A stretch of DNA of 64,000 nucleotides, from the NCBI GenBank assembly GCA_000283575.1, contig AP012044.1, forward strand, positions 310,001 through 374,000, in the 5' to 3' direction. This document shows positions 7,929-51,924 of this stretch, piece after piece. This DNA comes from Oscillibacter valericigenes Sjm18-20. GTDB taxonomy: Bacteria > Bacillota > Clostridia > Oscillospirales > Oscillospiraceae. Position numbers and translations under genes: made by a program. Under the pieces are notes generated by a model. It was not told the DNA's origin. It made no database searches and saw only the letters and a program-made list of their open reading frames with translations. How positions within the stretch are numbered: position 1 is the stretch's first letter; every line of letters starts with the position of its first letter.

Positions 7929-8755
7929 AGCCTGCCGTAAAACGCAAAATAGCAGCCGAAGTACAGGAATGCTATGAAATCAGCGAGCGCCGCGCGTGCA
8001 GGCTAATGGGGATCAGCCAGAACAGCAAACGATACAAGCCGACCGATAAAAGCGGGGATACTTTGGTAACAGAACGGCTGAAGGCACTTTCGGTGCGCTG
8101 GAAACGATTTGGTTATCGCCGGTTACATGTCATGCTTCTGCGCGAAGGCTTTGAGATTAACCACAAAAAAACATACAGGCTTTACAAGGATGCAGGATTA
8201 ACCCTTCAGAAGCGAAGCAAAAAGAAGAAATATAAAAAGCGCGGCATGCCGGAACGCACCGCAAAAGAAATGAATGCTCGCTGGTCGATGGATTTTGTCA
8301 GCGACAGAACCAGATATGGCTCAAACATTCGCGTTCTGACCGTAATTGATGAAGTGACGCGGGAATGTCTGGCTCTTGAAGTGGATAGCTCTCTCTCCGG
8401 GCGGAGGGTATCGGCTGTTCTAAACCGGATCGCCTTGTTCCGGGGGCTGCCGAAAGAAATTCTGACCGATAACGGCTCTGAATTTACCAGTAATGTAATG
8501 AATGCCTGGGCGTACGATCACAAAGTGGAACACATTTTTACAGATCCGGGCAAGCCCATGCAAAACGGCTACATAGAAAGCTTCAACGGGAAACTCCGCG
8601 CGGAATGCCTAAACCAACATTGGTTTCAAAGCTTGTCTGAGGCAAGGGAGATAATTGAAAACTGGCGGTTGGAATATAACAGGATCAGGCCGCATTCCTC
8701 TCTCGACAACCTGACGCCGGAAGAATATGCCTTGAAACTTTCAAGTTGTTACTAA
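7919..8755 (+). CDS. IS3-family OrfB transposase (copy 1)
   Basis: rve-type integrase domain transposase read in the -1 frame relative to OrfA. Without frameshifting the first in-frame ATG is at 8006. The coding signal starts upstream as [15 protein letters not shown], supporting an OrfAB fusion. The catalytic residues are visible: Asp in [10 protein letters not shown], Asp in [12 protein letters not shown], Glu in [16 protein letters not shown]. The end ([18 protein letters not shown]) is typical. The frame is intact, so this copy could supply transposase for both copies in the window. Confidence 0.9.
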
Positions 8756-8788: not shown

Positions 8789-9051
8789 CTCTAAAGAAAA
8801 ACGGCTGGAACGATACCAGTGGAGGTTTATTTGTTGCGCCAAAAAGTATAATTTATCCATTTCACATCCGCCACAATCCTTGATTTGCAAGGCTTTTGGG
8901 GATGCTATACTTGTTGAAAATTAAGCAAGCGAAATTATACTTTCCCCATAGATGGCGGTTTCGTGCTATGGAATTATCCAAACAAAGGCAGTTGAGATTT
9001 TTCTTCTCGGCTGCTTTTTTTGCGCCTTTGCTCGGATAATTTGCTATTCAT
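8789..9051. repeat. IS91-related non-autonomous repeat, 5'-truncated copy A
   Basis: About 263 bp, highly similar to repeats at 11984-12326 and 51583-51924 from CTCTAAAGAAAAACGGCTGG to GCTATTCAT. The left 80 bp is missing because the IS3 element abuts it. The right part has a large hairpin: AATTATCCAAACAAAGGC pairs with GCCTTTGCTCGGATAATT around an inner CAGTTGAGA/TCTCGGCTG stem. The same right end terminates the IS91-like element near 26018. No gene inside. Confidence 0.8.
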
Positions 9052-9115
9052 ACTGTGACATTCAAATAGATCTGCAAGCTTCATGTAGTGTTTAGAGCGC
9101 GGCTACTATGAATAA

Positions 9116-10096: not shown

Positions 10097-10125
10097 CTTC
10101 GCACAGTGTAAACATTACACGAAGC
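10097..10125. repeat. Cassette-border site, best-formed copy
   Basis: Reads CTTCGCACAGTGTAAAC then ATTACACGAAGC. It is an imperfect palindrome: CTTC pairs with GAAG and GTGTAA with TTACAC, with an unpaired GCACA. It lies 60 bp beyond the stop codon of the methyltransferase gene. Similar copies flank many genes in the window. Confidence 0.7.
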
Positions 10126-10185
10126 ACGCATTTGCATTTGATTGCTCTATCAAATAGAAATTCTTAATAGGGATGACGTTCTGAG

Positions 10186-10838: not shown

Positions 10839-10866
10839 CTTCGCACAATGTAAACACAATGTGAAG
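10839..10866. repeat. Cassette-border site
   Basis: CTTCGCACAATGTAAAC then ACAATGTGAAG; same imperfect palindrome as at 10097, placed 11 bp after the stop of the gene at 10878-11312. The upstream TTTGAAAATTGGATTGCTATTAA also resembles the segment at 26115-26138. Confidence 0.65.
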
Positions 10867-10877
10867 TTCAACTGAAA

Positions 10878-11349: not shown

Positions 11350-11407
11350 CTTCGCGCAAACTGCGAAATTCAAACGCTCTGAGAGCTTGCCAAGTTTGCT
11401 TAAAATG
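11350..11407. repeat. Cassette-border site with conserved tail
   Basis: Compact core CTTCGCGCAAACTGCGAAATTC followed about 30 bp later by AAGTTTGCTTAAAAT. The same tail motif (GAGTTTGCTYATAAT) follows the sites at 15799 and 26018. It lies between the stop codon of the GNAT gene and the start of the previous gene. Confidence 0.6.
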
Positions 11408-11418
11408 CGCCATTCAAC

Positions 11419-11910
11419 TTATATAAGGTGATAATAAGGGCAGATGTCCTCATAATGACCGCCTTTCATACGGAATCCACCCGGAATAGTCCCTAGTTGC
11501 TTGAAGCCAAGCCTGTCATATAAATGTCTTGCATGCGTATTTGTTGCAACCACAGCATTAAATTGCATAATTCTGAATCCATGCTGCTTGGCTTTAATAA
11601 GGCAATCCGTTACTACCTTCTCGCCAATATGTAGTCCCCTGCTTTCGGTACTGACTGCATAACTGGCATTACATATATGACCGCATCTTCCCTCATTATT
11701 GGGGTGAAGTATATATAGACCATATATCTTTTTGCTTTCACGATCTTCCGCTACGGCACAATACGTCTGTAAACTAAAAAAGGCATTGCCGGTTTCTAAA
11801 GTCAGCAACTCTTCTTGAGGAAATGCGATTCCCTCCTCAACGACTTCATTCCAGACGTCAATCATTGAGGTGACGTCAGCAGCATTATACGCTCGTATTT
11901 CAATATTCAA
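11419..11910 (-). CDS. GNAT-family N-acetyltransferase
   Basis: About 164 residues transferring an acetyl group from acetyl-CoA to an unknown amine. The fold is clear: IEIRAYNAADVTSMIDVWNE opens beta1-alpha1. The acetyl-CoA loop is in the SYAVSTESRGLHIGEKVVTD region (R-G-x-H-I-G replacing the usual Q/RxxGxG). The C-terminal HARHLYDRLGFKQLGTIPGG is the diagnostic beta5-alpha4 motif. The TTG at 11910 is preferred because AAGGAG lies 8 bp upstream; an ATG at 11931 lacks a site. Single gene between border repeats. Confidence 0.85.
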   Translation of the reverse strand: MNIEIRAYNAADVTSMIDVWNEVVEEGIAFPQEELLTLETGNAFFSLQTYCAVAEDRESKKIYGLYILHPNNEGRCGHICNASYAVSTESRGLHIGEKVVTDCLIKAKQHGFRIMQFNAVVATNTHARHLYDRLGFKQLGTIPGGFRMKGGHYEDICPYYHLI

Positions 11911-11983
11911 TTTAAAATTCTCCTTTTCCATTAAAATTGTAATGACTAATTAAACTTTGCACTTTAGGTAAGTCATAAACATA

Positions 11984-12326
11984 GCACTAAACCGCCTTCG
12001 GCGGTGGTATTGACAGGAATTTCGACTGATGATAAAATAGCGACACAAGATAAACAACGTTGCCTCTAAAGAAAAAGGGCTGGAACGATACCAGTGGAGG
12101 TTTATTTGTTGCACCAAAAAGTATAATTTCTCTATTTTGTATCCGCCGCAATCCTTGATTTGCAAGGCTTTTGCGAATACTATACTTGTCGGAAATTAAG
12201 CAAGAGAAATTATACTTTTCCCATAGATGGCGGTTTCGTGCTATGGAATTATCCAAACAAAGGCAGTTGAGATATTTCTTCTCGACTGCTTTTTTCGCGC
12301 CTTTGTTCGGATAATTTGCTATTCAT
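11984..12326. repeat. IS91-related miniature element, copy B
   Basis: 343 bp beginning GCACTAAACCGCCTTCGGCGG (the left-end hairpin also found, as GCACGAAACCGC, at the IS91-like elements) and ending with the AATTATCC/GGATAATT hairpin and GCTATTCAT. It encodes nothing convincing; an open frame inside (MDNSIARNRHL) recurs in copy C only because the repeat recurs. The left flank is TAAACATA, as at the IS91-like copies. About 90 percent identical by eye to copy C. Confidence 0.8.
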
Positions 12327-13669: not shown

Positions 13670-13770
13670 ATAGATGCCTCCGCTACTTTTATGGGGCTGA
13701 TCATGATCTTTTAAATCAAATTCCGGTTTATCTCCTCATCAAGTTAAGTGTATTTTCTATATATCCATCA

Positions 13771-13787
13771 CAAACAAACTGCGAAGC
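13771..13787. repeat. Cassette-border site
   Basis: CAAACAAACTGCGAAGC. It is preceded by about 55 bp (ATCAAATTCCGGTTTATC onward, 13715-13770) that recur in front of the IS91-like element at 23595-23650. The stretch 13788-14015 contains a minus-strand open tail (KILNQRWCWPEGVSGFEASN) of unknown origin and no confident gene. Confidence 0.6.
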
Positions 13788-14015
13788 GCGGAAAACGCTC
13801 CGGGCTGGCCATCGTGCTCATAAGATTCAAAGAATTGTCAGCATTTGTAGTTCAGTTGCATCAAATTTTTGCCATTGGGCAGCAGCCGTTCTTCTTTCCT
13901 GTCGTTATCCACGTCGTACATGCCCGCTGTGCTGTAATTAGACGCTTCAAATCCAGAAACACCTTCGGGCCAGCACCAGCGCTGGTTCAAAATTTTCTCG
14001 TTTGATTTCGTATGT

Positions 14016-14750: not shown

Positions 14751-14823
14751 TTTTGCATCTCCCACCTATTTGCGTCTATTTCTTTTGCATATTGTCAAAA
14801 CTCCTACCAAGGAGTGATAATAT

Positions 14824-15737
14824 ATGCAGTCAGAAAAATTCTGTGCCATTATTGAGCAATATCTCGCATACTTAATAACTGTCAAAGGTCGAAGTCCAAA
14901 TACCATATTGGAATACCGGTTAGATCTACTACAATTCCTTTGCTATGTCGCGGGGACATGCGCATTCCAATTTCAGCTTTGTAGACATTGACTTCATCCG
15001 TTCTATCTGCCTTGGTGATATGTATGCCTTTTTGGCTTATTGCCAGGAGACATTGAATGCAGCGCCTGGCACCAGATACCGAAAGATTGTTTCCATCCGG
15101 CAATTCTGGAAGTATAGTGCACTTAATTGACAACAACATAGCAGAAGAGTTGGAGACACCAAAGTTGCCCAAGCGAAATGTACGGACATTGACATTGGAG
15201 GAGTCTGTACGCCTGCTGATACAAGCAAAATCGTGCTCAGCTCGTGACGATTGTATTATCACTATTTTTCTCAACTGCGCCTTGCGTTTGTCCGAGTTAG
15301 CATCGTTGAATATTGATCAGGTTGACTCCGATGTTATCTCTATTATCGGCAAGGGCAATAAAGAGAGAAAAATTTATTTGACACCCGCCGTTAAACAATC
15401 ACTGGCAAAATGGCTTGCCATCCGTAGTACGCTGAAGGTCGATTGTAATGCACTGTTTATCTCTAGGAACAGAGGCAGGCTTACAACACGTTCCATACAA
15501 AACGTCGTTAAAAAGCATATCATTGCCGCTGGTATCAACCCAGAAAGCTTGTCCACGCATAAGCTTCGTCACACTGCAGCTACACGCATGTACAAGTATG
15601 GGCATGTAGATATTCGATCTCTTCAACAAATCCTTGGACATGAAAGCATTGCTACCACGGAAATTTATACACATGTGGATGACCGCCAGTTGCAAGCCGC
15701 TGTGAATACCAACCCCTTGGCCATGATGTTCAATTGA
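14824..15737 (+). pseudogene. XerC/D-like tyrosine recombinase, two frameshifts
   Basis: Starts MQSEKFCAIIEQYLAYLITV at ATG 14824 behind AAGGAG. It shifts frame near 14955 (continuing VDIDFIRSICLGDMYAFLAY) and again near 15115 (continuing DNNIAEELETPKLPKRNVRT). The third segment holds the catalytic domain: NCALRLSELASLNIDQV (Arg), a Lys-bearing GKGNKERKIYL beta-hairpin, HKLRHTAATRM (HxxR), LGHESIATTEIYTHV (His and the Tyr nucleophile). All catalytic residues are present but not in one frame. It is distinct from the IS91-associated recombinase at 23778. A border site begins 12 bp after its stop codon, so it might once have acted on these sites; that is speculation. Confidence 0.8.
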
Positions 15738-15748
15738 GCATCATGGCT

Positions 15749-15845
15749 TAAACATTACACGAAGCTTATTAGTCCTGCAGAATGTTTTATCAGTACCCTA
15801 ATGCGAAGCTCGTTTAGCCCTTTGGATTGCTGAGTTTGCTCATAA
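15749..15845. repeat. Double cassette-border site
   Basis: Two copies in tandem: TAAACATTACACGAAGC at 15749-15765 and a second half-site ATGCGAAGCTCG at 15801-15812 followed by the conserved tail GAGTTTGCTCATAAT at 15832-15846. Lies between the recombinase remnant and the gene at 15853. Confidence 0.7.
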
Positions 15846-15852
15846 TCTCTGT

Positions 15853-16659: not shown

Positions 16660-16678
16660 TAAACATTACACGAAGCTC
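16660..16678. repeat. Cassette-border site
   Basis: TAAACATTACACGAAGCTC, identical in core to the copies at 10107 and 15749. The following 150 bp up to the IS3 copy is AT-rich and shows no gene. Confidence 0.7.
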
Positions 16679-16905
16679 GTTCAGTCATTGCAGCTACTTA
16701 TTGTGCTCGCTTTGCAGCGCTATGTTCAATTTTGTGATATAATTTGACAATAAACATTATAGCAAAAAAGATAATAAATTCATTAAATAAAAATCCAAAA
16801 GAATTTATGGACATTGATTTTAGTGGATTGACCTGAACCCGAAAAACTTCGTCAATAGGAATGTTAGTCACGATATGCTACAATAGAAAAAATGGAGTGA
16901 TTGAC

Positions 16906-17169
16906 ATGAAGGTAAGGTTTACAGAAGAACAGATCATCAAGATTCTCAAGGAGCACGAGGGTGGCAAGAAGGCAGTGGATATTGTCCGTGAGTACAATAT
17001 CACAGAACAGACTTTTTACCGTTGGAAAAGCAAATATGGCGGCATGGACGTTAGTGAAGCCAAGCGTCTGAAACAGCTTGAAGAAGAAAACCGTCGGCTG
17101 AAAGAAATGGTCGCCGACTTGTCTTTGGATAATAAGATATTAAAGGACGTACTCTCAAAAAACGGCTAA
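16906..17169 (+). CDS. IS3-family OrfA (copy 2)
   Basis: 87-residue OrfA, the same protein as copy 1 except for the last residue. Start ATG 16906 behind GGAGTGATTGAC. Helix-turn-helix and coiled coil as in copy 1. The A6C slippery run precedes the stop, so an OrfAB fusion by -1 frameshift is expected. Confidence 0.9.
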
Positions 17170-17996
17170 AGCCTGCCGAGAAGCGCAAGATTGCATGTGA
17201 GATACAGGAACAGTACCGTCTCAGCGAGCGCCGCGCGTGCAGGCTTATGAACATATACCGAAGTAGCAAGAGATACAATCCGAGTGGCAAAAGCGAAGAT
17301 GCCGCAATCACAGCTCGACTGACTGCGTTGGCTGCTCGTTGGAAACGGTTCGGCTATCGGCGATTGCATGTTATGCTCCAGCGTGAAGAGATACATATCA
17401 ACCACAAACGAACCTATCGACTCTATAAAGAGGCGGAGTTAGCCTTGAAGAGACGGAACAAGAAGAAAAAATACGAAAAGCGCGGCATGCCGGAACGCAC
17501 CGCAAAAGAAATGAATGCTCGCTGGTCGATGGATTTTGTCAGCGACAGAACCAGATATGGCTCAAACATTCGCGTTCTGACCGTAATTGATGAAGTGACG
17601 CGGGAATGTCTGGCTCTTGAAGTGGATAGCTCTCTCTCCGGGCGGAGGGTATCGGCTGTTCTAAACCGGATTGCCTTGTTCCGGGGGCTGCCGAAAGAAA
17701 TTCTGACCGATAACGGCTCTGAATTTACCAGTAATGTAATGAATGCCTGGGCGTACGATCACAAAGTGGAACACATTTTTACAGATCCGGGCAAGCCCAT
17801 GCAAAACGGCTACATAGAAAGCTTCAACGGGAAACTCCGCGCGGAATGCCTAAACCAACATTGGTTTCAAAGCTTGTCTGAGGCAAGGGAGATAATTGAA
17901 AACTGGCGGTTGGAATATAACAGGATCAGGCCGCATTCCTCTCTCGACAACCTGACGCCGGAAGAATATGCCTTGAAACTTTCAAGTTGTTACTAA
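17160..17996 (+). CDS. IS3-family OrfB transposase (copy 2, mosaic)
   Basis: Integrase-type transposase in the -1 frame relative to OrfA. The first in-frame ATG is at 17247, but coding similarity starts at [15 protein letters not shown]. The N-terminal 105 residues or so differ from copy 1 at many positions (for example [20 protein letters not shown] against [20 protein letters not shown]). The rest, with the DDE residues ([22 protein letters not shown]), is identical. The frame is intact. The N-terminal part of OrfB contacts the inverted repeats in related elements, so the difference could affect end recognition. Confidence 0.9.
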
Positions 17997-18090: not shown

Positions 18091-18118
18091 TTACTTATAT
18101 TGGTATATTATAAACATT

Positions 18119-18710
18119 GCACGAAACCGCTAACGCGGTGGTATCTAAACCCTGAATTTTTCTTCTATAGAACCTGCTGCAGTTGCGGCAGGTTTTCTCT
18201 TTATCCCGTAAAATGGAAGCATCACTTTTAAGGAGATGATTCCATGACAAATGAAGAAGTCTTTGCTCGAGCCTACGATGAGGTGCGGCTGCGAGGCCTG
18301 TCGCCCAAAACAGTTGCGTCATATCTGGGACGGCTCAAGCTGTTCCTAAAGTATTTCAACGATCGTCCCATTGAAGAAATGGGTGAAAGCGAGATTCGCG
18401 AGTACCTGCTGTATCTGTTGAATTCGGGACACAGCGCGGGATCAGTCAATGTTTACAAAAGCGCACTGCGCTTCATTTTCGGTGCAGTCATGGGTCGGAA
18501 TCTCAATTGCCAGCTGATCCACAGGCGGCGCGAGCACCGGGAGTTCCCAGCATTGATGAGCAAAAAAGAGCTTGCGCATTTCTTTTCCAGCATGGACAAC
18601 CTCCGTGACAGAGCCATGTTTGAAACCGTATACGGTGCTGGGCTGCGCCTATCCGAAATAACCCATCTTCGCGTTCAAGACATCGACAGCCAGCAGATTC
18701 TCTACTCATT
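18119..18710. mobile_element. Internally deleted IS91-like element
   Basis: 592 bp with the same left end (GCACGAAACCGC hairpin, then CGGTGGTATC) and the same right end (ATTCTCTACTCATT) as the full element at 23654-26018. It lacks the 3' third of the recombinase gene and the whole transposase. The deletion joins CAGCAG of the recombinase directly to the last 14 bp of the element. The left flank TAAACATT and right flank ATACGAAGCTC are the two halves of a cassette-border site. Confidence 0.85.
18244..18696 (+). pseudogene. Truncated tyrosine recombinase of the IS91-like element
   Basis: First 151 codons match the intact recombinase at 23778 (about 95 percent by eye): TNEEVFARAYDEVRLRGLSP, then AGLRLSEITHLRVQDIDSQQ with the first catalytic Arg. 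The sequence then jumps to the element's right end, and about 18 unrelated residues follow to a stop at 18750. HxxR and the Tyr nucleophile are gone. AAGGAGATGATTCC precedes the ATG. A terminator-like stem (AACCTGC/GCAGGTT) sits in the leader, as in the intact copy. Confidence 0.9.
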
Positions 18711-18891
18711 ATACGAAGCTCATATAAACCGCGGATTACTATGCTCATAATAAGTTGCTTAGCCAGATTAAAGAAACACTTACTAACATTTGATAGCAAT
18801 ATAATTGCAATCTGCGTCATTACTCTTGCATTGGTGTACCGATGACTGTATTCTTAAAAATATACGTTTGCAAATAATGGAGGCAGATGGT

Positions 18892-19599
18892 TTGATTGAA
18901 ATTGCTGTTTGTGATGACGAAGAAATTGTGCTCTCCGAGTTAAGAAACAAAATTAAATCTTATATGGAACATACAAATTTTCTGTGTCAGATATTTGAGT
19001 TTTCAAACGCAGAAAGGTTGCTGAAGAGTCAAGAATTATTTGACATTGTTTTTCTTGATATTCAAATGGATGGTATGACCGGTATGGAAGCAGCTAAAAA
19101 ATTACGACAAGAAGGCTCCGAAAGTTTTTTTGTTTTTGTTACAGTGCTGAAAGAATATGTTTATGATGCCTTTACGGTAGAAGCATCAGACTATTTACTG
19201 AAGCCTATAGAAAATGAACGATTTATAAGTACAATGAATCGGATCCTCGGATACATTGGGGATAGAGAAAAAAACAAGCTGCTTATCCAAAAAGAATCAT
19301 GGTGCAAATCTATTCGGTTTGCGGATATTTTATATTGTGAGGCAATCAACCGAAAAATTTTTGTTCACACCAAGCAGGGTGTTATTAACTACTACTTCAA
19401 AATAGAAGAATTAGAAAAGCAGTTAGGGCCTTGCTTTTTTAGGTGCCATCGCAGTTATCTTGTGAACCTAAAATACGTTTGTGGCTATGAAAACGGCATG
19501 GCAGAACTTGAAAATGGTGAGAGTATTTTAGTCTCAAGACTGCGGCAGCAGGATTTCAAAAAAGCTGTTTTATGCTTCATGAAAGAAAGGCGCAAATAA
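18892..19599 (+). CDS. LytTR-family response regulator (AgrA-like)
   Basis: About 235 residues. The receiver domain begins IEIAVCDDEEIVLSELRNKI with the acidic pocket; the phospho-acceptor Asp is in DIVFLDIQMDGMTG and the conserved Lys in DYLLKPIENERF. The C-terminal LytTR DNA-binding domain spans SIRFADILYCEAINRKIFVH to CHRSYLVNLKYVCGYENGMA. It would control transcription after phosphorylation by the kinase encoded immediately downstream. A TTG start at 18892 is favoured by GGAGG 8 bp upstream; longer starts (ATG 18880, or 18805) lack one. No AgrB/AgrD-type peptide genes are visible beside it. Confidence 0.85.
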   Translation: MIEIAVCDDEEIVLSELRNKIKSYMEHTNFLCQIFEFSNAERLLKSQELFDIVFLDIQMDGMTGMEAAKKLRQEGSESFFVFVTVLKEYVYDAFTVEASDYLLKPIENERFISTMNRILGYIGDREKNKLLIQKESWCKSIRFADILYCEAINRKIFVHTKQGVINYYFKIEELEKQLGPCFFRCHRSYLVNLKYVCGYENGMAELENGESILVSRLRQQDFKKAVLCFMKERRK

Positions 19600-19601
19600 A
19601 T

Positions 19602-20903
19602 ATGGATTGGTTTACCTTATTGACGAAATGGCTTAGCCCCATTTTATGCTTCTGGATTTTAAATGGAAGCCTTGCATGGCTTGAAATGTATTTTTTCGGT
19701 AAGTTCGTAAGACAACCCTTAAAATGGTATCATTATGCCGCTTATATACTTACGATGTACTTTATCTATGGGGCAGAAATACAGATGCGGGTATTATTTC
19801 CGGTTTCAACTCTTTTGGAATTGACCGTACTCTTTATATTTGGGTGTCTCATTTTAAAATGCTCGCCAATATTATCAGCAATTACGACCATCCTTACAAT
19901 AAGTGTTATGCAGGTTTTAAATGGCATTTTTCAATCAATCATCAATCTTGCTTGCACGTTTTTATTTTATCCGCATATACTTGTGCCTGTTTGCGTTATT
20001 CTCACATTGGTAGCAGCCTTTTTTTCTTATCGGTACATCGCAAAATTATTTAGTAAAAAAGCGCCCATAAATTGGTATATGTTAAACCTTCTACTGCCAA
20101 TTCTGTTTATTTTATTAGTAATTCAGCATATTTTTATAATCCACGGAGATCCTACTGCAACGCTATCGACGGGCGATAATTGGTGCATGTTACTAATACA
20201 AATTATAGCCTATTTTTGCCTGTTCTCAGTGCTTTTTGCTTATAGAAAATTGTCAGATCATTATGAATTGCAAATACAGAATGCGTTGTTGGAGCAAGAG
20301 ATTAATATGCAAAAAAATTATATGCAGGAGGTGCAAACCCGTTATGAGAAGACCGCTGCTTTTCGGCATGATATTAAGAATCATTGGGTCGTGTTAATGG
20401 GCCTCTTAAAAAATGGAGAGATTCAAAATGCATTCGAATATTTAAACAAACTGGAGGCTGCATCCGATACATTCTCTTTTTTCTGCCATACAGGGAATAT
20501 CGTAATTGATATGCTTCTTGCCAATAAATTGGGGTTGGCGCAGCAAAATGGAATTAGAGTAGATTGTACCATGAAGCTCCCCGGTGACGATGCAATTGAC
20601 AATATGGATCTTTGTATTGTCTTTGCCAATGCGGTTGATAATGCAATAAAAGCCTGCAACACTGTTAAAGAAGGAGATCAATATATAAGACTCTCCGCGG
20701 TTCAAAAAGGGAAACTTCTTATGGTCGAGATTGAAAACAGCCGCAGTGTAAATGATGTGAAGCGCAAAGGTACAGGCATTGGACTTCAAAATATTAAAGC
20801 TGTTGCCGAAAAGTATAATGGCACAGTGAGTGTGGAATCGAATGAGAAGATTTTTAAACTAAACATCCTTTTTATCATTTCACTACATTCAGATAGCATT
20901 TGA
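19602..20903 (+). CDS. GHKL-domain sensor histidine kinase (AgrC-like)
   Basis: About 433 residues from ATG 19602 (AAAGG upstream), 2 bp after the response regulator stop. The N-terminal half has about six membrane helices for signal perception. A coiled linker (LEQEINMQKNYMQEVQTRYE) leads to the H box AAFRHDIKNHWVVLMGLL with the phosphorylated His. The ATPase domain has the N box FANAVDNAIKAC and the G box GTGIGLQNIKAVAEKYNGTV. It is the cognate partner of the LytTR regulator. The arrangement matches peptide-sensing agr/com systems; the ligand is unknown. The final 20 residues look slightly eroded. Confidence 0.85.
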   Translation: MDWFTLLTKWLSPILCFWILNGSLAWLEMYFFGKFVRQPLKWYHYAAYILTMYFIYGAEIQMRVLFPVSTLLELTVLFIFGCLILKCSPILSAITTILTISVMQVLNGIFQSIINLACTFLFYPHILVPVCVILTLVAAFFSYRYIAKLFSKKAPINWYMLNLLLPILFILLVIQHIFIIHGDPTATLSTGDNWCMLLIQIIAYFCLFSVLFAYRKLSDHYELQIQNALLEQEINMQKNYMQEVQTRYEKTAAFRHDIKNHWVVLMGLLKNGEIQNAFEYLNKLEAASDTFSFFCHTGNIVIDMLLANKLGLAQQNGIRVDCTMKLPGDDAIDNMDLCIVFANAVDNAIKACNTVKEGDQYIRLSAVQKGKLLMVEIENSRSVNDVKRKGTGIGLQNIKAVAEKYNGTVSVESNEKIFKLNILFIISLHSDSI

Positions 20904-20975
20904 CTGCAAATTTATTGAAATAATATATATCATTAAATATAGTTAGTGTATCTTCAAACATAAACAGGAGGTTTT

Positions 20976-21413
20976 ATGATGAGCATTAACGGTATTGGAG
21001 TGCCTTCCCCTCAAAATTCAACCGCGGATCATTCAAAAGACACAGAACAGAAAATTAAATCCTTGGAACAGAAAAAGGCCAAACTCCTGGAGGACAAGGA
21101 GAAAGAAAAGAATCCCTTTGCACTAAAACAAAGCGATGAGTATGCTGCGATCAGCAAAAAAATTCAGGAACTGGACAAACAAATTCAAGTGTTGAATGCT
21201 GAATCATCATCCGCTCCAACAAATGATAAAAATGAAAACACAAATTCGCGGATGCGTCCGTTTGATGAATTTGTAAGCAGTGAGGATCAGCCACAGTCCC
21301 CTTCTTCCGGGGTCTACTGTGTTTCTCCTGATGAAAACGGAAATTCGGTAATCTCTTTTGACCCGCCTCAGGCAGATAATCACGCGTCGAATGAAAAAAG
21401 CCAGCGGCCATAA
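20976..21413 (+). CDS. FlxA-like coiled-coil protein
   Basis: 145 residues, start ATG 20976 behind a perfect AGGAGGTTTT. Residues about 22-75 form a charged coiled coil (KDTEQKIKSLEQKKAKLLED, then KIQELDKQIQVLNAE), characteristic of FlxA-like proteins. A Ser/Pro/Asn-rich disordered tail follows. No signal peptide. It stands downstream of the regulator/kinase pair, 72 bp after it, and might be under its control. Function of this family is not established. Confidence 0.7.
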   Translation: MMSINGIGVPSPQNSTADHSKDTEQKIKSLEQKKAKLLEDKEKEKNPFALKQSDEYAAISKKIQELDKQIQVLNAESSSAPTNDKNENTNSRMRPFDEFVSSEDQPQSPSSGVYCVSPDENGNSVISFDPPQADNHASNEKSQRP

Positions 21414-21535
21414 TATAGGCCATAGGCCATATAATCGAAATACGTGGCTGACGGCAAGGCGAAGTAAAGTTAAAGTGTCTGGCGGTGTACGGTGGTCAAG
21501 ACCGGGGTGTATAGGCTTAGAGCTTAGGCGCGATA

Positions 21536-21718
21536 TAAACATAGCACTAAACCGGCGGCGTGTTGATGCTGAACCGGTAAAATCGTTAATCCGACTCCAT
21601 TAGCTAAAAGTCAATAAAACCGCTTTCAATGCCTTAAAAACGAATTAGCAGGTTCACAAGAAGGACGGCAATGCCGTCCTTCTTGCTTTAGTGGAACAGT
21701 CTAAACATAATGCGCAGT
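21536..21718. repeat. Two degenerate cassette-border sites around a hairpin
   Basis: TAAACATAGCACTAAACCGG at 21536-21555 resembles the left end of the IS91-related repeats. TAAACATAATGCGCAGTG at 21702-21719 resembles the border core. The 417-bp stretch 21414-21830 otherwise holds short repeats (TAGGCCATAGGCCATA) and a terminator, and no gene. Confidence 0.45.
21656..21690 (+). terminator. Probable rho-independent terminator
   Basis: Stem AAGAAGGACGGCA/TGCCGTCCTTCTT with almost no loop, followed by GCTTTAG. The stem is nearly perfect and the T-tract weak; it may end the FlxA-like transcript. Confidence 0.65.
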
Positions 21719-21830
21719 GCAGATCAACGGCTGTGAGGTCGATCTTATATGGATAATGGGCCGTTCATTTTGATGACATTTAATACTATTTGGAGAGAGG
21801 TGTTACAAATTTATAATACCCGCACAAAAG

Positions 21831-22988
21831 CTAATGTGATTTAATAGAGTCAATAAAAGCCGGAGGATTAATGATTTTGTTGCCTGAAGAATCAATATAT
21901 GCGCTATCAAAGAGTAATTTAATTATTTCCTCATTTGTTAGAGATTGATCGACCTGCCAGCCTAGTGCGAGTACACCTGCAGCATATGGTATCCCCCAGC
22001 TCAAACCACCTTGCCCAGTAAATTGATATGAATTATGATTGGCTGAGTACTGCTCGGCAGTAGCCCTAAAAGACGTTGGAACAAAGATGCTACCATCTAA
22101 TTGTATATCAGAAGGCATTGTCGGAAAACCCGTTTTGAAAAGTGTAACATCGTCGGGCTTTTCTGGATCGTAATATCCAGGAGCGATGATACCAGTTTTA
22201 TTATCTTCCCTGCAATCTAGGACCAAAATTCCCTCCGCCTGCGCCTCCGCCACGGCATCGTCCCATTCTTCGAGGTTTTCTTCAAAAGGCGATCCGGTAC
22301 CGGAGGGGGCTGCGGAAACGGAGACAACACGAATTTTTTTCCCTGAGGGCAACCCTCTATTAGTTTTAATGATCCATCTCAATGCTTCTGCGTAGTAATG
22401 GCTATCGCCAGTCCATGATGGAGCGGCTGCGAAATAAAGTTCTGCATCCGGTGCAACGCCGCAACTATTCCCTACTAGTAGACTTGCTACAGCGGGGCCA
22501 TGCATTGAACCTGAATCAACTGGCTGATTCGTACCAAAGTCTTTATACTCTATTATTCTTTCGCTGAATTCGGGATGGAATGGTTGCGCAAGATTTTGGT
22601 CTATTATAGCTACTTTAACTCCCTTGCCAGTGATCCCCTGTTGATGTAATTTGCAGATACCAAGTCCTGGATTTTTGCCGTTTTCGAGAACCTGCGCTGC
22701 CAACTTCTCATTGCCAGGGAAAATCGTATCCATGTTAAAGGTATAGGTTATTATATCCTCTGGCGCATAGTTATCTTCTTCTATCTTTTTAATTTCTGAA
22801 ACAGAACCGGAAAGGACACGAACATCGCTGTATTGTGGAATGTATTCCACGGTGCTATTTGACGCTGATAGTTCCGGAGTACCCGTTTGTGAGGGACGGG
22901 GCGTTTCATTTGTATGAGTACCACCAACGGAACAGGATGCTAGTATGGGAACCACGGCAATCAAGATCAGGGCGATAAGTTTTTTCAT
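21831..22988 (-). CDS. Subtilisin-like serine protease (S8), lipoprotein
   Basis: 385 residues with a lipoprotein signal peptide (lipobox LASC, Cys19) and a threonine/proline-rich linker, so it is exported and tethered to the outer face of the membrane. The S8 triad is recognisable: Asp130 in VKVAIIDQN, His163 in GSMHGPAVASLL, Ser330 in GGLSWGIPYAAGVLALG (usual GTSMAAPHVAG). The serine motif is divergent, so activity is likely but not certain. Single minus-strand gene; ATG 22988 has GGAG about 12 bp upstream. Border sites lie on both sides (21702 and 23027). Confidence 0.85.
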   Translation of the reverse strand: MKKLIALILIAVVPILASCSVGGTHTNETPRPSQTGTPELSASNSTVEYIPQYSDVRVLSGSVSEIKKIEEDNYAPEDIITYTFNMDTIFPGNEKLAAQVLENGKNPGLGICKLHQQGITGKGVKVAIIDQNLAQPFHPEFSERIIEYKDFGTNQPVDSGSMHGPAVASLLVGNSCGVAPDAELYFAAAPSWTGDSHYYAEALRWIIKTNRGLPSGKKIRVVSVSAAPSGTGSPFEENLEEWDDAVAEAQAEGILVLDCREDNKTGIIAPGYYDPEKPDDVTLFKTGFPTMPSDIQLDGSIFVPTSFRATAEQYSANHNSYQFTGQGGLSWGIPYAAGVLALGWQVDQSLTNEEIIKLLFDSAYIDSSGNKIINPPAFIDSIKSH

Positions 22989-23026
22989 TTATAATTACTC
23001 CATTAATTAAACTTTTCTGCAGAGTG

Positions 23027-23045
23027 TAAACAAACTGCGAAGCTC
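23027..23045. repeat. Cassette-border site
   Basis: TAAACAAACTGCGAAGCTC, followed by AAAACACTTAGATTATACTC. The same tail (CAAAACACTTATATTATACGC) follows repeat B at 12337. Confidence 0.7.
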
Positions 23046-23078
23046 AAAACACTTAGATTATACTCGACAAATCCGGGG

Positions 23079-23570
23079 TTATATTTGATTGCTTGAGTGA
23101 ATCGCTTTTCTTCCAAATGGTACAAAAAGAAATGGCGCAAGGTTTGCTGACAGTACAGAAAGGTTAAAACGACCTATTATCTTATATAAACCGGAACTCA
23201 AAATGCTAATCCAGTTCTGGAAGGTCGCCAATTCAACGCTGATGGATGCTGGAAAGTTTGGTAGATATAGTTGCATCAGGGTTAGGGCTAAATAAATGGC
23301 AGAGATAATGGCTGCAGAAACGGCAATCTCTGCTCTTGTCATAGTTCTGAAAGCCCACAAGCCTCCCAATAACAGTACTATCAAAAATAGTCCTCCGTTA
23401 AAAATGGCAGAGCGGAGAGGATCGGCAGAAACTTCAGACACTCCATCAACTCCTACGGTTTTTACTATAAAGAAAAATCTTCCTAAATAAATGGTAAGAT
23501 AAAAGCTAACCCAGCTGGAGACAAGGCAGAAAACTGGCACTCTCCATAAAGTGTTGATTCGTATTTTCAT
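23079..23570 (-). CDS. Hypothetical integral membrane protein
   Basis: 163 residues with four hydrophobic segments (VFCLVSSWVSFYLTIYLGRF, FNGGLFLIVLLLGGLWAF, AVSAAIISAIYLALTLMQLY, and one near the C-terminus) and a short basic tail. No recognised family. The start ATG 23570 follows AAAGGGAAAATCTAT. It is another single minus-strand gene between a border site (23027) and the left end of the IS91-like element (23654). Confidence 0.65.
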   Translation of the reverse strand: MKIRINTLWRVPVFCLVSSWVSFYLTIYLGRFFFIVKTVGVDGVSEVSADPLRSAIFNGGLFLIVLLLGGLWAFRTMTRAEIAVSAAIISAIYLALTLMQLYLPNFPASISVELATFQNWISILSSGLYKIIGRFNLSVLSANLAPFLFVPFGRKAIHSSNQI

Positions 23571-23777
23571 ATAGATTTTCCCTTTCAGTAAACGATCAAA
23601 TTCCGGTTTATCATCAAATTAAGTGAATTTTCTACATGTACATCATAAACATAGCACGAAACCGCTGGCGCGGTGGTATCTAAACCCTGAATTTTTCTTC
23701 TATCGAACCTGCTGCAGTTGCGGCAGGTTTTCTCTTTATCCCGTAAAATGGAAGCATCACTTTTAAGGAGATATTCC

Positions 23778-24593
23778 ATGACAAATGAAGAAGTCTTTTC
23801 TCGAGCCTACGATGAGGTGCGGCTGCGAGGTCTGTCGCCCAAAACAGTTGCGTCGTATCTGGGACGGCTCAAGCTATTCCTCAAATATTTCCATGACCAA
23901 CCCATTGAAGGAATGGGTGAAAGCGAGATTCGCGAGTACCTGCTGTATCTATTGGATTCCGGACACAGCGCGGGATCAGTCAATGCTTACAACAGCGCAC
24001 TGCGTTTCATTTTCGGTGCAGTCATGGGGCAAAACCTAAACTATCAGCTAATCCATCGACGGCGCGAACACCGGGAGTTCGCGGCATTGATGAGCAAAAA
24101 AGAGCTTACGCATTTCTTTTCCAGCATGGACAACCTCCGTGACAGAGCTATGTTTGAAACCGCATACGGCGCGGGATTGCGCCTGTCCGAAATAACTTAC
24201 CTCCGCGTTCAGGACATTGACAGCCAGCAGATGAGGATTTTCATTCACCAAGGAAAAGGCGGCAAAGACAGATATACGCTGCTCTCACAGCGTAATTTAA
24301 AGGTGCTACGTGAGTATTGCAGGACAAATCATCCGGAGGGGTATTTGTTTTATCTCAGAAAGCAGCGGCAAAAAGTATTGACGCCGCGCTCGGTGGCAAA
24401 TGCCTTTCGCAACTGCTGCAAAAATGCTGGCCTGCCGGATACTTACACAGTTCATACGCTGCGCCACTGCTTTGCGACGCACCTCTTGGAATCCGGTGCA
24501 GAAGTCTGCCAAATCAAGGAACTGCTTGGTCATACGTTCATTCAGACAACAGCATTTTATCTTCATATCGGCAACATGAACAAGCAGATTTAA
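23778..24593 (+). CDS. Tyrosine recombinase of the IS91-like element
   Basis: 271 residues from ATG 23778 (AAGGAG upstream). An N-terminal SAM-like DNA-binding domain (LRGLSPKTVASYLGRLKLFL) precedes an XerC/D-type catalytic domain. Catalytic residues visible: Arg in GAGLRLSEITYLRV, Lys in GKGGKDRYTLL, HxxR in VHTLRHCFATHLL, His in ELLGHTFIQTT, and the Tyr nucleophile in TTAFYLHIGN. Complete and in frame, so it is the one recombinase in the window that looks active. It ends 55 bp before the transposase. The two-half border sites flanking its own element and its deletion derivative suggest it, or the transposase, acts at those sites. Confidence 0.92.
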   Translation: MTNEEVFSRAYDEVRLRGLSPKTVASYLGRLKLFLKYFHDQPIEGMGESEIREYLLYLLDSGHSAGSVNAYNSALRFIFGAVMGQNLNYQLIHRRREHREFAALMSKKELTHFFSSMDNLRDRAMFETAYGAGLRLSEITYLRVQDIDSQQMRIFIHQGKGGKDRYTLLSQRNLKVLREYCRTNHPEGYLFYLRKQRQKVLTPRSVANAFRNCCKNAGLPDTYTVHTLRHCFATHLLESGAEVCQIKELLGHTFIQTTAFYLHIGNMNKQI

Positions 24594-24648
24594 AGCCCGT
24601 TGGACTCACTGCCTAAAAAACGGGGCCGCAAACCGAGGGTGTCATCAA

Positions 24649-25743
24649 ATGCCTGAGGTACAAGATATTTTAGAGCAGTATGGTGAAGGTTACCGGCAAA
24701 GTCACCGGCTGCCTATGGCTCAACGCAAGGCAATGAACGCCATTCTCAATTGCCGCACGGCCAAACTTGGAGGCCACATGGATCACTGTCCGGAGTGTGG
24801 ATACCAAAGACCATCCTACAACTCGTGCCGTAACCGGCACTGTCCGAAATGCCAGACACTCTCCAAAGAACGCTGGATTGACGCGCAAAAGGGAAACCTG
24901 CTCAACGTGGGCTCCTGTATCGTCTCAGCTACACAGCGGAAAAGCAGATTGTAACCGCCCTGCTGGTTCCGGTAAATCCATGGATTCAGCTCCTGCGGTA
25001 CGTTGAATACCACATGAAAGTAGCCATCCGCTGACAAGAAATATCTTGGCGCCGCCACCGGCCACACCGCTGTGCTCCATACGTGGGGTCAAAACCTCTG
25101 CTTCCACCCACATATACACTGCATTGTTCCGGGCGGTGGCCTCACCAAGCTGGGCAAATGGCTTCCGTCCAGGAAAAAGTTCTTCCTGCCGGTGAAGGTC
25201 CTGTCCAGGAAATTTCGAGGCAAGTTTTTATCGCTGCTCAAGCAGCGGTTTCCCAGCATAGAACTGTCCGTGCTGAATGAGTGTTATCATAAGGAATGGG
25301 TGGTTTACTGCAAGCCGCCTTTTAAAGACGCCGCCTGCGTGGTGGAGTATCTTGGACGCTACACCCACAGGGTGGCGATCGCCAATAACCGTATTCTAAG
25401 TACAGAGAACAGGCAGGTCTCTTTCAAATGGCGAGACTACCGGGACGGTGGCCGCTGGAAAGAGATGACGTTGAGAGCGGAAGAGTTTATTCGGCGCTTC
25501 CTGATGCACGTCCTGCCAACCGGGTTCATGAAAATTCGGCACTATGGTTTTCTGTCCAGTCGCGGCAAGCAGAAGAAGCTGCACACCTGCAAGGTACAGA
25601 CGGGCACATCACTGAAAAAAAGAGAAAAGCTCTCCACGGAGGCCCTCATCCAAAAGATCCTCGGCAGAAAGCCCTCTCAATGCCCAAGATGCAAATGCCG
25701 CGGTCTGCTTCGAACCGGACTCGCACCACCCACAGCCTGCTAA
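24649..25743 (+). pseudogene. IS91-family HUH transposase disrupted by an internal inversion
   Basis: Rolling-circle (Y2-HUH) transposase. The N-terminal zinc-binding domain reads MDHCPECGYQRPSYNSCRNR then HCPKC. The HUH motif is FHPHIHCIVPGGG and the tyrosine region VVEYLGRYTHRVAIAN. Read forwards, the frame is lost after LLNVG (24909) and resumes at about 25026. The missing middle (YFHVVFNVPQELNPWIYRNQ, then QGGYNLLFRCVAETIQE) lies on the opposite strand between 24910 and 25025. Reversing exactly those 116 bp gives one continuous frame of 364 codons. As sequenced, the protein is truncated or needs restart at GTG 25072. Confidence 0.9.
24910..25025. other. 116-bp inverted segment inside the transposase gene
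   Basis: Bounded by GGCT (24910-24913) and AGCC (25022-25025). The minus strand of this segment encodes the conserved transposase stretch that is absent from the plus strand. Re-inversion restores GTG GGC TAC TTT CAT on the left and GAG CCA TCC GCT on the right, both in frame. Confidence 0.85.
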
Positions 25744-26018
25744 ATTACAAAGCCTTTTTAAGTCTGCTCCAAGGGCAGGCTGGCTTTGCTGCACCCATTT
25801 TACCATAGAAAGAAAAGAATTGATATGACTTTTTCCGGAAACTGTGCTTTTCAGGTATCTGCGCAGCTGTAATTTCAAGAAATAAAAGCGATGCTTTTCC
25901 CATAGCTGCCAGCAAACCGCCCGCGGTTTCGTGCTATGGAATTATCCAAACAAGGGCGACGCAGTTCTTGCTGTGCCGTTCATTTTTTGCGCCCATGCTC
26001 AGATAATTCTCTACTCAT

Positions 26019-26269
26019 TAAACGAAGCTCACATAACCCCTGCTGTTGCTTGAGTTTGCTTATAATGGGACCTCTATCAATAACCATAATCTCGGTTTAT
26101 AAAATTACTTTAATCCTTTGAAAATTGGCATGCTATTAAGACAAAATTATTACAGGATAGGCTGTTCATGTTTGCAGTCAATGCACCTACCGAGTTTGAA
26201 ATTACCTTCTTTTCATAGTGTGAACATTATCCACGGCTATAACGCTTGGAATAAAGCAAAGTACTCCAA
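26019..26269. repeat. Border-site half, conserved tail and gene-free stretch
   Basis: AAACGAAGCTC at 26020-26030 followed by the tail GAGTTTGCTTATAAT at 26052-26066. A degenerate site (CATAGTGTGAACATTATCC, 26214-26232) lies before the protease gene. TTTGAAAATTGGCATGCTATTAA resembles the segment before the site at 10839. No gene seen. Confidence 0.5.
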
Positions 26270-49726: not shown

Positions 49727-50008
49727 TCGTGGTATGCTGTTGAGTATGTTGGCGAGGAAGAACTAAAGCCTGGTAAATTGTTCTCGGCATCATCTATTTA
49801 TCCAACGAAAAGACAAACCCCGATTTCCCAGGCCGCGATATTCTCTTTTCTTCAAATCATGAAGGGTGTATCTATTCCAAAAGGTGTCGTTGTGACTGGC
49901 CGGGGAACAGATGATTACACACAATATACAGCTTTGATAAATACAAGCAGCGGAGAATATTTCTTTAATACTTATAAAAATTTGCAAATAAAAAAGGTGA
50001 GCCTTTGA
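49727..50008 (+). pseudogene. C-terminal fragment of a choloylglycine-hydrolase-like enzyme
   Basis: Open from a TAG at 49724, encoding WYAVEYVGEEELKPGKLFSA, then SIYPTKRQTPISQAAIFSFL and ALINTSSGEYFFNTYKNLQI. This matches the C-terminal end of linear amide C-N hydrolases (bile salt hydrolase/penicillin V acylase family). The N-terminal nucleophile Cys domain is absent and no ribosome binding site is present. The gene-free stretch before it (49529-49726) holds no other feature. Confidence 0.6.
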
Positions 50009-50215
50009 GCTCCCGAAACATCTTCCACCGCATTTGTTGATTTGGGAGGGATAATGCAGCCCATGACCTTTGAAAAACTATAACAGATAGAAATTGCCGG
50101 CGGAATGATGACGATTTTTAATCAGCGGTTAAACTATGTACTCTGTCCAAATTGCAAGCATGTTCGAAAACCCAATTCAAACGGACCCGTTTTATAAACA
50201 ATCAGTTTGAGCCTT

Positions 50216-50246
50216 CTTCGCATAGTGTAAACATTATGCCAAGCTC
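50216..50246. repeat. Cassette-border site
   Basis: CTTCGCATAGTGTAAAC then ATTATGCCAAGCTC; same long form as at 10097 and 10839. The preceding 50009-50215 has only a 30-codon open stretch with one CPNC pair (50104-50196), too weak to call. Confidence 0.65.
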
Positions 50247-51496: not shown

Positions 51497-51582
51497 TAAA
51501 AGCTCCTTTCATCCATTTGTAGCACTTTATATAAAATACATGCAATTTACAGCAACCCATTATATGGTATGTAGTAAACAAA

Positions 51583-51924
51583 GCACTAACCCCCTTCGGC
51601 GGTGGTATTGACAGGAATTTCGACTGCTGATAAAATAGCGACATAACATAAACAACGTAGCCTCTAAAGAAAAACGGCTGGAACGATACCAGTGGAGGTT
51701 TATTTGTTGCGCCTAAAAGTATAATTTCTCTTTTTCCTATACGCTGCAAACCTTGATTCGCAAGGCTTTTGCGGATACTATACTTGTCAGAAATTAAGCA
51801 AGAGAAATTATACTTTCCCCATAGATGGCGGTTTCGTGCTATGGAATTATCCAAACAAAGGCAGTTGAGATTTTTCTTCTCGACTGCTCTTTTTGTGCCT
51901 TTGCTCGGATAATTTGCTACTCAT
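51583..51924. repeat. IS91-related miniature element, copy C
   Basis: 342 bp, same ends and body as copy B at 11984. Left end GCACTAACCCCCTTCGGCGG, preceded by TAAACAAA. Right end hairpin AATTATCC/GGATAATT then GCTACTCATT, followed by ATACGAAGTTC. It is inserted in or beside the 3' end of the MocR-like gene, supplying its last codons. Confidence 0.82.

Follow-up and report, generated by a model that had tools for sequence, protein, structure and literature searches.

Some members of the IS91 family of insertion sequences carry a recombinase gene (as in ISfinder; it was not described among the matches listed in our literature search). The IS1111-attC group consists of insertion sequences that target integron cassette recombination sites and, to our knowledge, has neither an HUH protein nor a tyrosine recombinase, and we know of no HUH transposase in the strand-biased circularizing integrative elements. 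A circular single-stranded intermediate has been reported for IS91 (PMC5714925), a DEDD transposase and a seekRNA for the IS1111-attC group (PMC11187229), and tyrosine recombinases with a strand-biased circular form for the strand-biased circularizing integrative elements of Vibrio and other Gammaproteobacteria (PMC9345347, PMC10214605). Integrons are reported to be very rare in Firmicutes, with one complete case and few attC clusters (PMC9024848). Here we describe a 2.37 kb two-gene element in a stretch of 64,000 nucleotides (the window; G000:C1:310001-374000 in our numbering) of the Oscillibacter valericigenes Sjm18-20 genome (4.47 Mb, completeness 99.99%). It is an IS91-family Y2-HUH element with its own IntI/XerA-like recombinase, and it likely inserts site-specifically into the recombination sites between small gene cassettes. 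Insertion into these array sites had been proposed in an initial annotation made from the sequence alone, and is strongly supported by empty and occupied sites in this genome and in Oscillibacter ruminantium, by the right flanks of the element copies and by some distant relatives that lie at attC-like sites. The parts of the element are as follows, in window coordinates:

23650..26015, plus strand: full IS91-type element, delimited by comparison of the 11 copies or large pieces in the genome and by empty-site comparison with O. ruminantium; ends placed to within about 2 bases
23778..24593, plus strand: intact tyrosine recombinase gene, 271 amino acids, IntI/XerA-like, with PF00589, an N-terminal PF13495 and the catalytic motifs
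24649..25743, plus strand: Y2-HUH IS91 transposase gene, broken in this copy, with NF033538, PF14319, PF04986 and the HPHIH and YxxxY motifs
24912..25025, minus strand: 114-bp segment that breaks the transposase, inverted relative to the 8 other genome copies that span it and to the O. ruminantium copy

The recombinase gene comes first and is followed by the transposase gene, and 11 copies or large pieces of the element are present in the genome, the window copy counted. The C-terminal piece of the transposase scores 270.6 bits with NF033538 (cut-off 125), which places it in the Y2-HUH family. Ten copies, counting that of O. ruminantium, keep a transposase frame, and nine of them have both HPHIH and YxxxY; in the cut copy at genome position 3006411 only HPHIH remains. 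Elsewhere in the genome the transposase is 364 residues long in four copies and 321 in three more. The 114-bp segment is 99% identical, on the opposite strand, to four of the eight copies, no long inverted repeats were found at its borders, and it may represent a real event or an assembly fault. A search of genome contigs for the element gave O. ruminantium GH1 (G014) as the sole match and a search of viral contigs found no relatives; the pair of recombinase and IS91 transposase is also present in other genomes of the class.

The closest solved structures to the element recombinase are IntI4 (2a3v, E 2.2e-31) and a XerC-like protein (4a8e, E 3.7e-31). The alignment with IntI4 skips residues 180-246 of the latter, opposite which there are 26 query residues, and the IntI-specific extra region is absent. 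The enzyme scores 164.7 bits with the NCBIfam integron-integrase model (cut-off 265) and 180 with the XerA_Arch model (cut-off 220); it may work like IntI, and because the first score is below the cut-off it is placed outside the IntI family as defined. A search for integron integrases in seven genomes (G354 not among them) gave no match, and the control genomes gave no match either. The initial annotation was right that 23778 begins the only intact recombinase gene of its kind in the window: the other two matches are a truncated copy at 18232-18747 and a Xer-like gene in three pieces at 14821-15734, and both are broken.

The junctions of the full element and of an internally deleted copy are these:

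23646..23651, plus strand: half-site TAAACA at the left junction of the full copy, TAAACATAGCACGAAACC; it belongs to the neighbouring cassette and is outside the element
26012-26017: TACTCA at the right junction of the full copy, CTCTACTCATTAAACGAAGCTC
26018..26030, plus strand: right half of the target site of the full copy, TTAAACGAAGCTC (p=6.3e-5 with a matrix from 25 element-free sites)
18115..18706, plus strand: internally deleted copy, with the recombinase cut after 158 residues and the transposase and most of the right hairpin gone
18111..18116, plus strand: half-site TAAACA at the left junction of the deleted copy, TAAACATTGCACGAAACC
18703-18708: right junction of the deleted copy, CTCTACTCATTATACGAAGCTC
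18709..18721, plus strand: right half-site of the deleted copy, TTATACGAAGCTC (same matrix, p=1.5e-5)

Both pairs of junctions are present as the initial annotation described them, and the array site that carries the two copies has the form TAAACA-N6-GAAGYTC. At the left junctions TAAACA is constant and is followed by two variable bases and then GCAC; at the right junctions CTACTCA or CTATTCA is constant, and the same two bases vary before the stretch derived from the target. The exchange point is best read as TAAA/CAT on the left and CTACT/CAT on the right, not fixable to the base, and the extent of about 23650-26015 given to the element follows from this reading. Since the two variable bases may disagree between the sides (TA on the left and TT on the right in the window copy) and no target duplication was seen at the element junctions, a single, integron-like exchange near TAAA/CA would fit better than the classical kind, in which strands are exchanged across an identical spacer.

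Of the 15 left ends tabulated in Oscillibacter, 14 carry TAAACA, the exception being the divergent copy at genome position 3317340, which has TAATTA. Two were left out of this count: the copy at 2998914, because its left end is truncated, and a remnant at window position 21536, whose inclusion would be circular because it was found by the TAAACA scan itself. All 14 right flanks match the right half of the array site (p 1.3e-5 to 4.3e-4) in a position matrix trained on the 25 element-free sites; omitted here are the copies at 3006411 and 3317340, which have no right end, and the entry at 3421365, which was found by the site scan. The junctions used for the scoring of flanks and for the search for flank partners were taken from the comparison of copies, not from the scan.

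Comparison of empty and occupied sites in relatives, which the initial annotation had suggested, found a plain site in O. ruminantium where the window copy sits: after the cassette that lies to the left of the element in the window, O. ruminantium has the same flank and then the ordinary, element-free site TAAACATTAAGCGAAGTC, where the window has TAAACAT followed by AGCACGAAACC. The O. ruminantium element in turn adjoins the end of a Xer-like gene, and the window counterpart of that place (15749) carries an empty site. Fourteen left flanks from elements and derivatives were compared; eight of them are found again at other places, with TAAACA and no element, and the right half is complete or recognisable in six; the six complete-site partners are four distinct empty places, and no partner was shown for the remaining 6 of the 14. 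Right flanks had an unoccupied partner in only 1 of 13 cases in the sequence compared. The partner search hid exact full-length matches, which probably explains the absence of partners for the copies at 801528 and at 3308195, although these two have matching left flanks. For the derivative at 11976, the right flank used in this search was displaced by one base. The half-sites of the initial annotation could have been ends of the element, and three results argue against this: the ordinary site in O. ruminantium, the empty window counterpart at 15749 and the recurrence of the left flanks. TAAACA as a part of the element is ruled out, as the same flanks occur element-free, and on these alignments the left half-site predates the insertion. 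We note that, on their TAAACA side, sites are bordered by 50 to 60 bases that group into families common to cassettes with different genes (window 13715-13776 and 23597-23651; locus L059, 11362-11421; locus L148, 7892-7951).

Small derivatives of the element lie in the same arrays:

11980..12323, plus strand: small non-autonomous derivative with ends as in the element; both of its flanks have element-free partners elsewhere
51579..51921, plus strand: second small non-autonomous derivative
8789..9065, plus strand: left-truncated small derivative, extent as matched

These three belong to a non-autonomous family of about 345 bp that has further members at genome positions 2981142-2981444 and 2995814-2996164, and TAAACA precedes all four derivatives that keep a left end.

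The neighbourhood is a row of small genes, many of them on the minus strand, between TAAACA-N6-GAAGYTC sites:

10109..10127, plus strand: array site TAAACATTACACGAAGCAC
10851..10869, plus strand: array site TAAACACAATGTGAAGTTC
11357..11983, minus strand: acetyltransferase (GNAT) cassette, 96.5% identical to one in O. ruminantium, with homology stopping within the sites; family assigned on the O. ruminantium copy
13771..13789, plus strand: array site CAAACAAACTGCGAAGCGC, element-free, with a left flank that matches that of the full element
14821..15737, plus strand: Xer-like recombinase gene ending at an array site, broken in the window and open in O. ruminantium
15749..15767, plus strand: array site TAAACATTACACGAAGCTT, empty here; its counterparts are occupied by the element in O. 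ruminantium and by the small derivative at genome position 2996164
16660..16678, plus strand: array site TAAACATTACACGAAGCTC
23027..23045, plus strand: array site TAAACAAACTGCGAAGCTC
23027..23652, minus strand: cassette directly left of the element, 92.6% identical to one in O. ruminantium
50228..50246, plus strand: array site TAAACATTATGCCAAGCTC

With up to three mismatches, TAAACATTACACGAAGCTC occurs 7 times in the window against an expectation of 0.02, and two of the seven are the right junctions of the full and the deleted copy. The stricter pattern TAAACAN5CGAAGYTC has 7 matches genome-wide, against none for its reversed control. It was found in 2 of 59 relatives, four times in O. ruminantium and once in G059; as the reversed control likewise turned up in two of the 59, with one match apiece, the lone match in G059 carries no meaning. 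A similar pattern with one mismatch allowed is noisy (31 matches against 16 for the control). Away from the element ends, the window has 12 matches whose core is TAAACA or CAAACA, ten of them in the same orientation. More array sites are present around 1.64, 2.58, 3.0 and 3.31 Mb, in stretches picked for element copies or site matches.

The two cassettes shared with O. ruminantium have different neighbours beyond the sites there, and their homology ends inside the sites; the array sites are thus places of exchange, whatever the enzyme. Behind the acetyltransferase cassette O. ruminantium has TAAACATA without a recognisable right half. A third stretch in common (window 49826-50227, 91.8% identity) stops immediately short of TAAACA on one side; on the other side it does not end at a site, and no site is present at this place in O. 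ruminantium. The motif TGCTYATAAT occurs three times on the plus strand of the window (15837-15846, 18742-18751 and 26057-26066), each time about 30 to 35 bases past the GAAGCTC side of a site, and resembles a -10 box or a cassette end signal. Between two array sites there is also an IS3-type transposase gene pair with rve domains (16861-17996), and the end of a second copy of it is at 8600-8754.

Nine distant elements have a left end that could be placed; for three of them (G354, G379 and G225) only the left end was placed, and L173, L176, L179, L181 and L183 were set aside because their left end is unrecognised or is at or beyond the end of the stretch. An attC-like left flank is present in four of the nine, three of them clear (G396, G430 and G364b). 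Against dinucleotide shuffles, the left flanks folded next to the junction give z -6.9 for G396, -4.6 for G430, -3.8 for G364b and -2.7 for G354, values that random places of the same loci reach in 0, 2, 3 and 5 of 40 draws, respectively. When the left and right flanks of the six distant elements with both ends were joined to rebuild the empty site, G396, G430 and G364b gave z -6.5, -3.2 and -2.2 (mononucleotide shuffles). In the rebuilt G396 site CGCATCTGCG and CGCAGATG form an inner stem and TATAAC and GTTATA an outer pair, in the order R''-L''-L'-R' with the element at GTT, which in our reading is the layout of attC, and some distant relatives appear to adjoin the R' box of attC-like sites. 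Other attC-like repeats or sites lie near IS91-plus-recombinase elements in G364, G396 and G354 (L143, 8432-8558 and 9479-9605; L147, 3981-4011 and 6973-7003; L181; L185).

The ends of the window element themselves contain inverted repeats:

23661..23674, plus strand: small hairpin of the left end, ACCGC-TGGC-GCGGT; a similar kind is found in distant relatives
25923..26015, plus strand: long hairpin of the right end, whose outer arm GCGGTTTCGTGCTATG (25923-25938) is an inverted copy of the left end CATAGCACGAAACCGC

Joined, these ends would fold as one long imperfect hairpin with about seven unpaired bases before the junction, giving the look of attC (the window junction used for folding had two bases doubled). 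In 8 of 10 junctions the minimum-energy fold, read by eye, pairs the left end with the expected arm. When the arm at the expected position was scored for complementarity to the left end, in windows placed by hand, p was below 0.02 in 8 of 9 elements and 0.085 in G430.

The best model at present is one in which a circular, possibly single-stranded form of the element is integrated into cassette sites by the recombinase. The HUH protein would yield a circular and probably single-stranded form, as may be supposed because IS91 is reported to do so, and the joined ends of this circle would fold into an attC-like hairpin. The recombinase would then act on a single strand of this hairpin and exchange it with the array site, in the way that IntI handles attC, to leave TAAACAT(A/T)GCAC at the left junction and CATTACACGAAGC at the right, and the second strand would be completed by host replication. 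Recognition of the array sites by the element's own recombinase, as held by the initial annotation, is the best reading of its catalytic motifs, the core-site signature on two sides and the lack of an adjacent GAAC or CAAG in the 14 right flanks; the cleaving enzyme, the strand and any role of the element in cassette movement are inferred.

A number of observations weigh against recombinase-mediated insertion at cassette sites. The right flanks of the copies at 801528, 995101 and 3308195 and of the derivative ending at 319051 (4 of 14) lack GAA, the window copy has no intact HUH gene, and in 19 of 25 loci, some of them cut by contig ends, relatives of the recombinase are without an IS91 transposase in the surrounding stretch. 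The Oscillibacter array sites fold no more strongly than random places (26 sites, median z -0.40 against -0.56, p=0.46; 31% against 18% below z -2), which rules them out as classical attC sites with imperfect hairpins and R''/R' boxes. Five of the nine distant elements (G158, G364a, G095, G379 and G225) have no attC-like left flank: the first four left flanks are unfolded, and that of G225 (z -2.9, reached in 5 of 40 draws) has its hairpin far from the junction. The value for G354 is no stronger than this and the placing of G354 among the attC-like flanks rests on its layout; the rebuilt empty sites of G364a, G095 and G158 are unfolded as well. Relatives inserted at unrelated sequences, without the TAAACA flank, had been named in the initial annotation as what would speak against it, and this is partly the case, as those five have no attC-like left flank and none of the nine has TAAACA, against 14 of 15 left ends in Oscillibacter.

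Other points of the same kind concern the pairing of the ends. The junction folds of G396 and G430 lack the expected left-end pairing. In the anchored test the element's own arm was best or tied in only five of nine cases, which is no demonstration of covariation or compensatory change, and the pairing may be due in part to common descent. Without anchoring, a duplex test singled out just four of nine junction arms (0 to 3 of 300 shuffles, against 38 to 170 of 300 for the rest), and the own right end ranks first for only four of nine left ends. With the anchored test positive in 8 of 9, the own arm best in 5 of 9 and the unanchored test positive in 4 of 9, pairing of the ends is well supported in Oscillibacter and G364b and suggestive elsewhere.

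The main rival to insertion by the element's recombinase is that the HUH transposase alone picks the target, reading the cassette site as sequence, and that the recombinase merely resolves or circularises copies. IS91 prefers a GAAC or CAAG target beside its ori end, and the hairpin in the right end of our element is of the sort that HUH origins can have. Neither motif nor its complement is found in the first eight bases of any of the 14 right flanks (both strands), which rules out canonical IS91 targeting; moreover, the junction has conserved signature bases to either side of it, several bases away, as the arms of a recombinase site would be, and some relatives appear to adjoin the R' box of attC-like sites, the place of IntI exchange. 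We therefore consider targeting by the HUH protein alone unlikely.

The initial annotation also linked the element to the movement of cassettes. That cassettes move at the sites stands; the element's own part in this we only infer, as the mover could be the second, Xer-like recombinase of the arrays. That this enzyme, open in O. ruminantium, moves the element along with the cassettes, the element merely mimicking a cassette end, is quite improbable. A TAAACA site marks the end of its gene at three loci (window 15749, genome 2996164 and O. ruminantium 14009). The gene is distinct from the chromosomal Xer-type gene of most relatives, with which it shares about 38 to 49% identity (a match is present in 47 of 60 genomes), and the longest array sites, read by eye, resemble an 11-6-11 arm-spacer-arm Xer site. 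Of its two loci in the window genome, however, one has a broken Xer-like gene and the other, near 2996164, matches just the 3' half of it, whereas the element has 10 further copies or large pieces there and carries a recombinase of its own. A hairpin lies between the end of the Xer-like gene and the TAAACA site in the window (14821-15737), in O. ruminantium (L111, 13059-13994) and near genome position 2996164. The suggestion that TAAACA and the GAAGCTC-like right end belong to the element, with the arrays being old element remnants, would account for TAAACA at nearly every copy and is very improbable: the element-free recurrence of 8 of 14 TAAACA flanks and the full-site cassettes of O. ruminantium that have no element refute it for the left side, and on the right side, where only 1 of 13 flanks has an unoccupied partner, the flanks differ between copies.

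Returning to insertion by the element's recombinase, a further and more tentative proposal, to which we give somewhat less than even weight, is that the element is a self-mobile integron cassette, in which an HUH-made circle with attC-like joined ends is inserted as a hairpin at cassette sites by a compact IntI-like recombinase. The target in Oscillibacter would then be a simple site that does not fold, and in some Clostridia it would resemble attC. If this is true, rolling-circle transposition and integron recombination would be two halves of one cycle, and the same enzyme could shuffle cassettes. For the spread of cassettes where no integron integrase is found, an IS91-type element whose recombinase targets cassette sites would offer a mobile source of integrase activity. 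Such an element would also make sense of the retention of an HUH transposase next to a tyrosine recombinase, and the compact enzyme with its defined pair of sites would be a direct handle on single-strand recombination outside classical integrons.

The element is like the IS91 family in its transposase, which scores above the NCBIfam cut-off and has the zinc-binding and Y2_Tnp domains and the HxH and YxxxY motifs, in the hairpins at its ends and in showing no target duplication; it is unlike that family in having an IntI/XerA-like recombinase directly upstream, in its insertion at cassette sites and in the lack of adjoining GAAC or CAAG. With integrons it shares a recombinase that is about equally close to IntI4 and to a XerC-like protein, joined ends that in Oscillibacter are predicted to fold like attC, one putative point of exchange, cassette arrays as targets and, in some distant relatives, a place at attC-like sites; it differs in that its recombinase is well below the integron-integrase cut-off and is missing the part of IntI4 that separates the two matched stretches, and in that the Oscillibacter sites as a group are unfolded. 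Insertion at cassette recombination sites is shared with the IS1111-attC group, and the use of a tyrosine recombinase with the strand-biased circularizing integrative elements. The arrays resemble Xer-dependent dif modules (pdif) in having genes between short recombination sites, in the 11-6-11 look of the longest sites and in the presence of a Xer-like gene, and differ from them in that the array-site sequence departs from the dif consensus. Among the matches listed in our literature search, which covered open papers (subscription papers and preprints being outside it), an IS91-type element with a recombinase that inserts at cassette or attC sites was not described. The combination of an HUH transposase with an integron-like recombinase, in an element whose joined ends resemble attC and which inserts at cassette sites, thus appears to be new, made from known parts, and suggests that two separate DNA-mobility systems have merged in this element.

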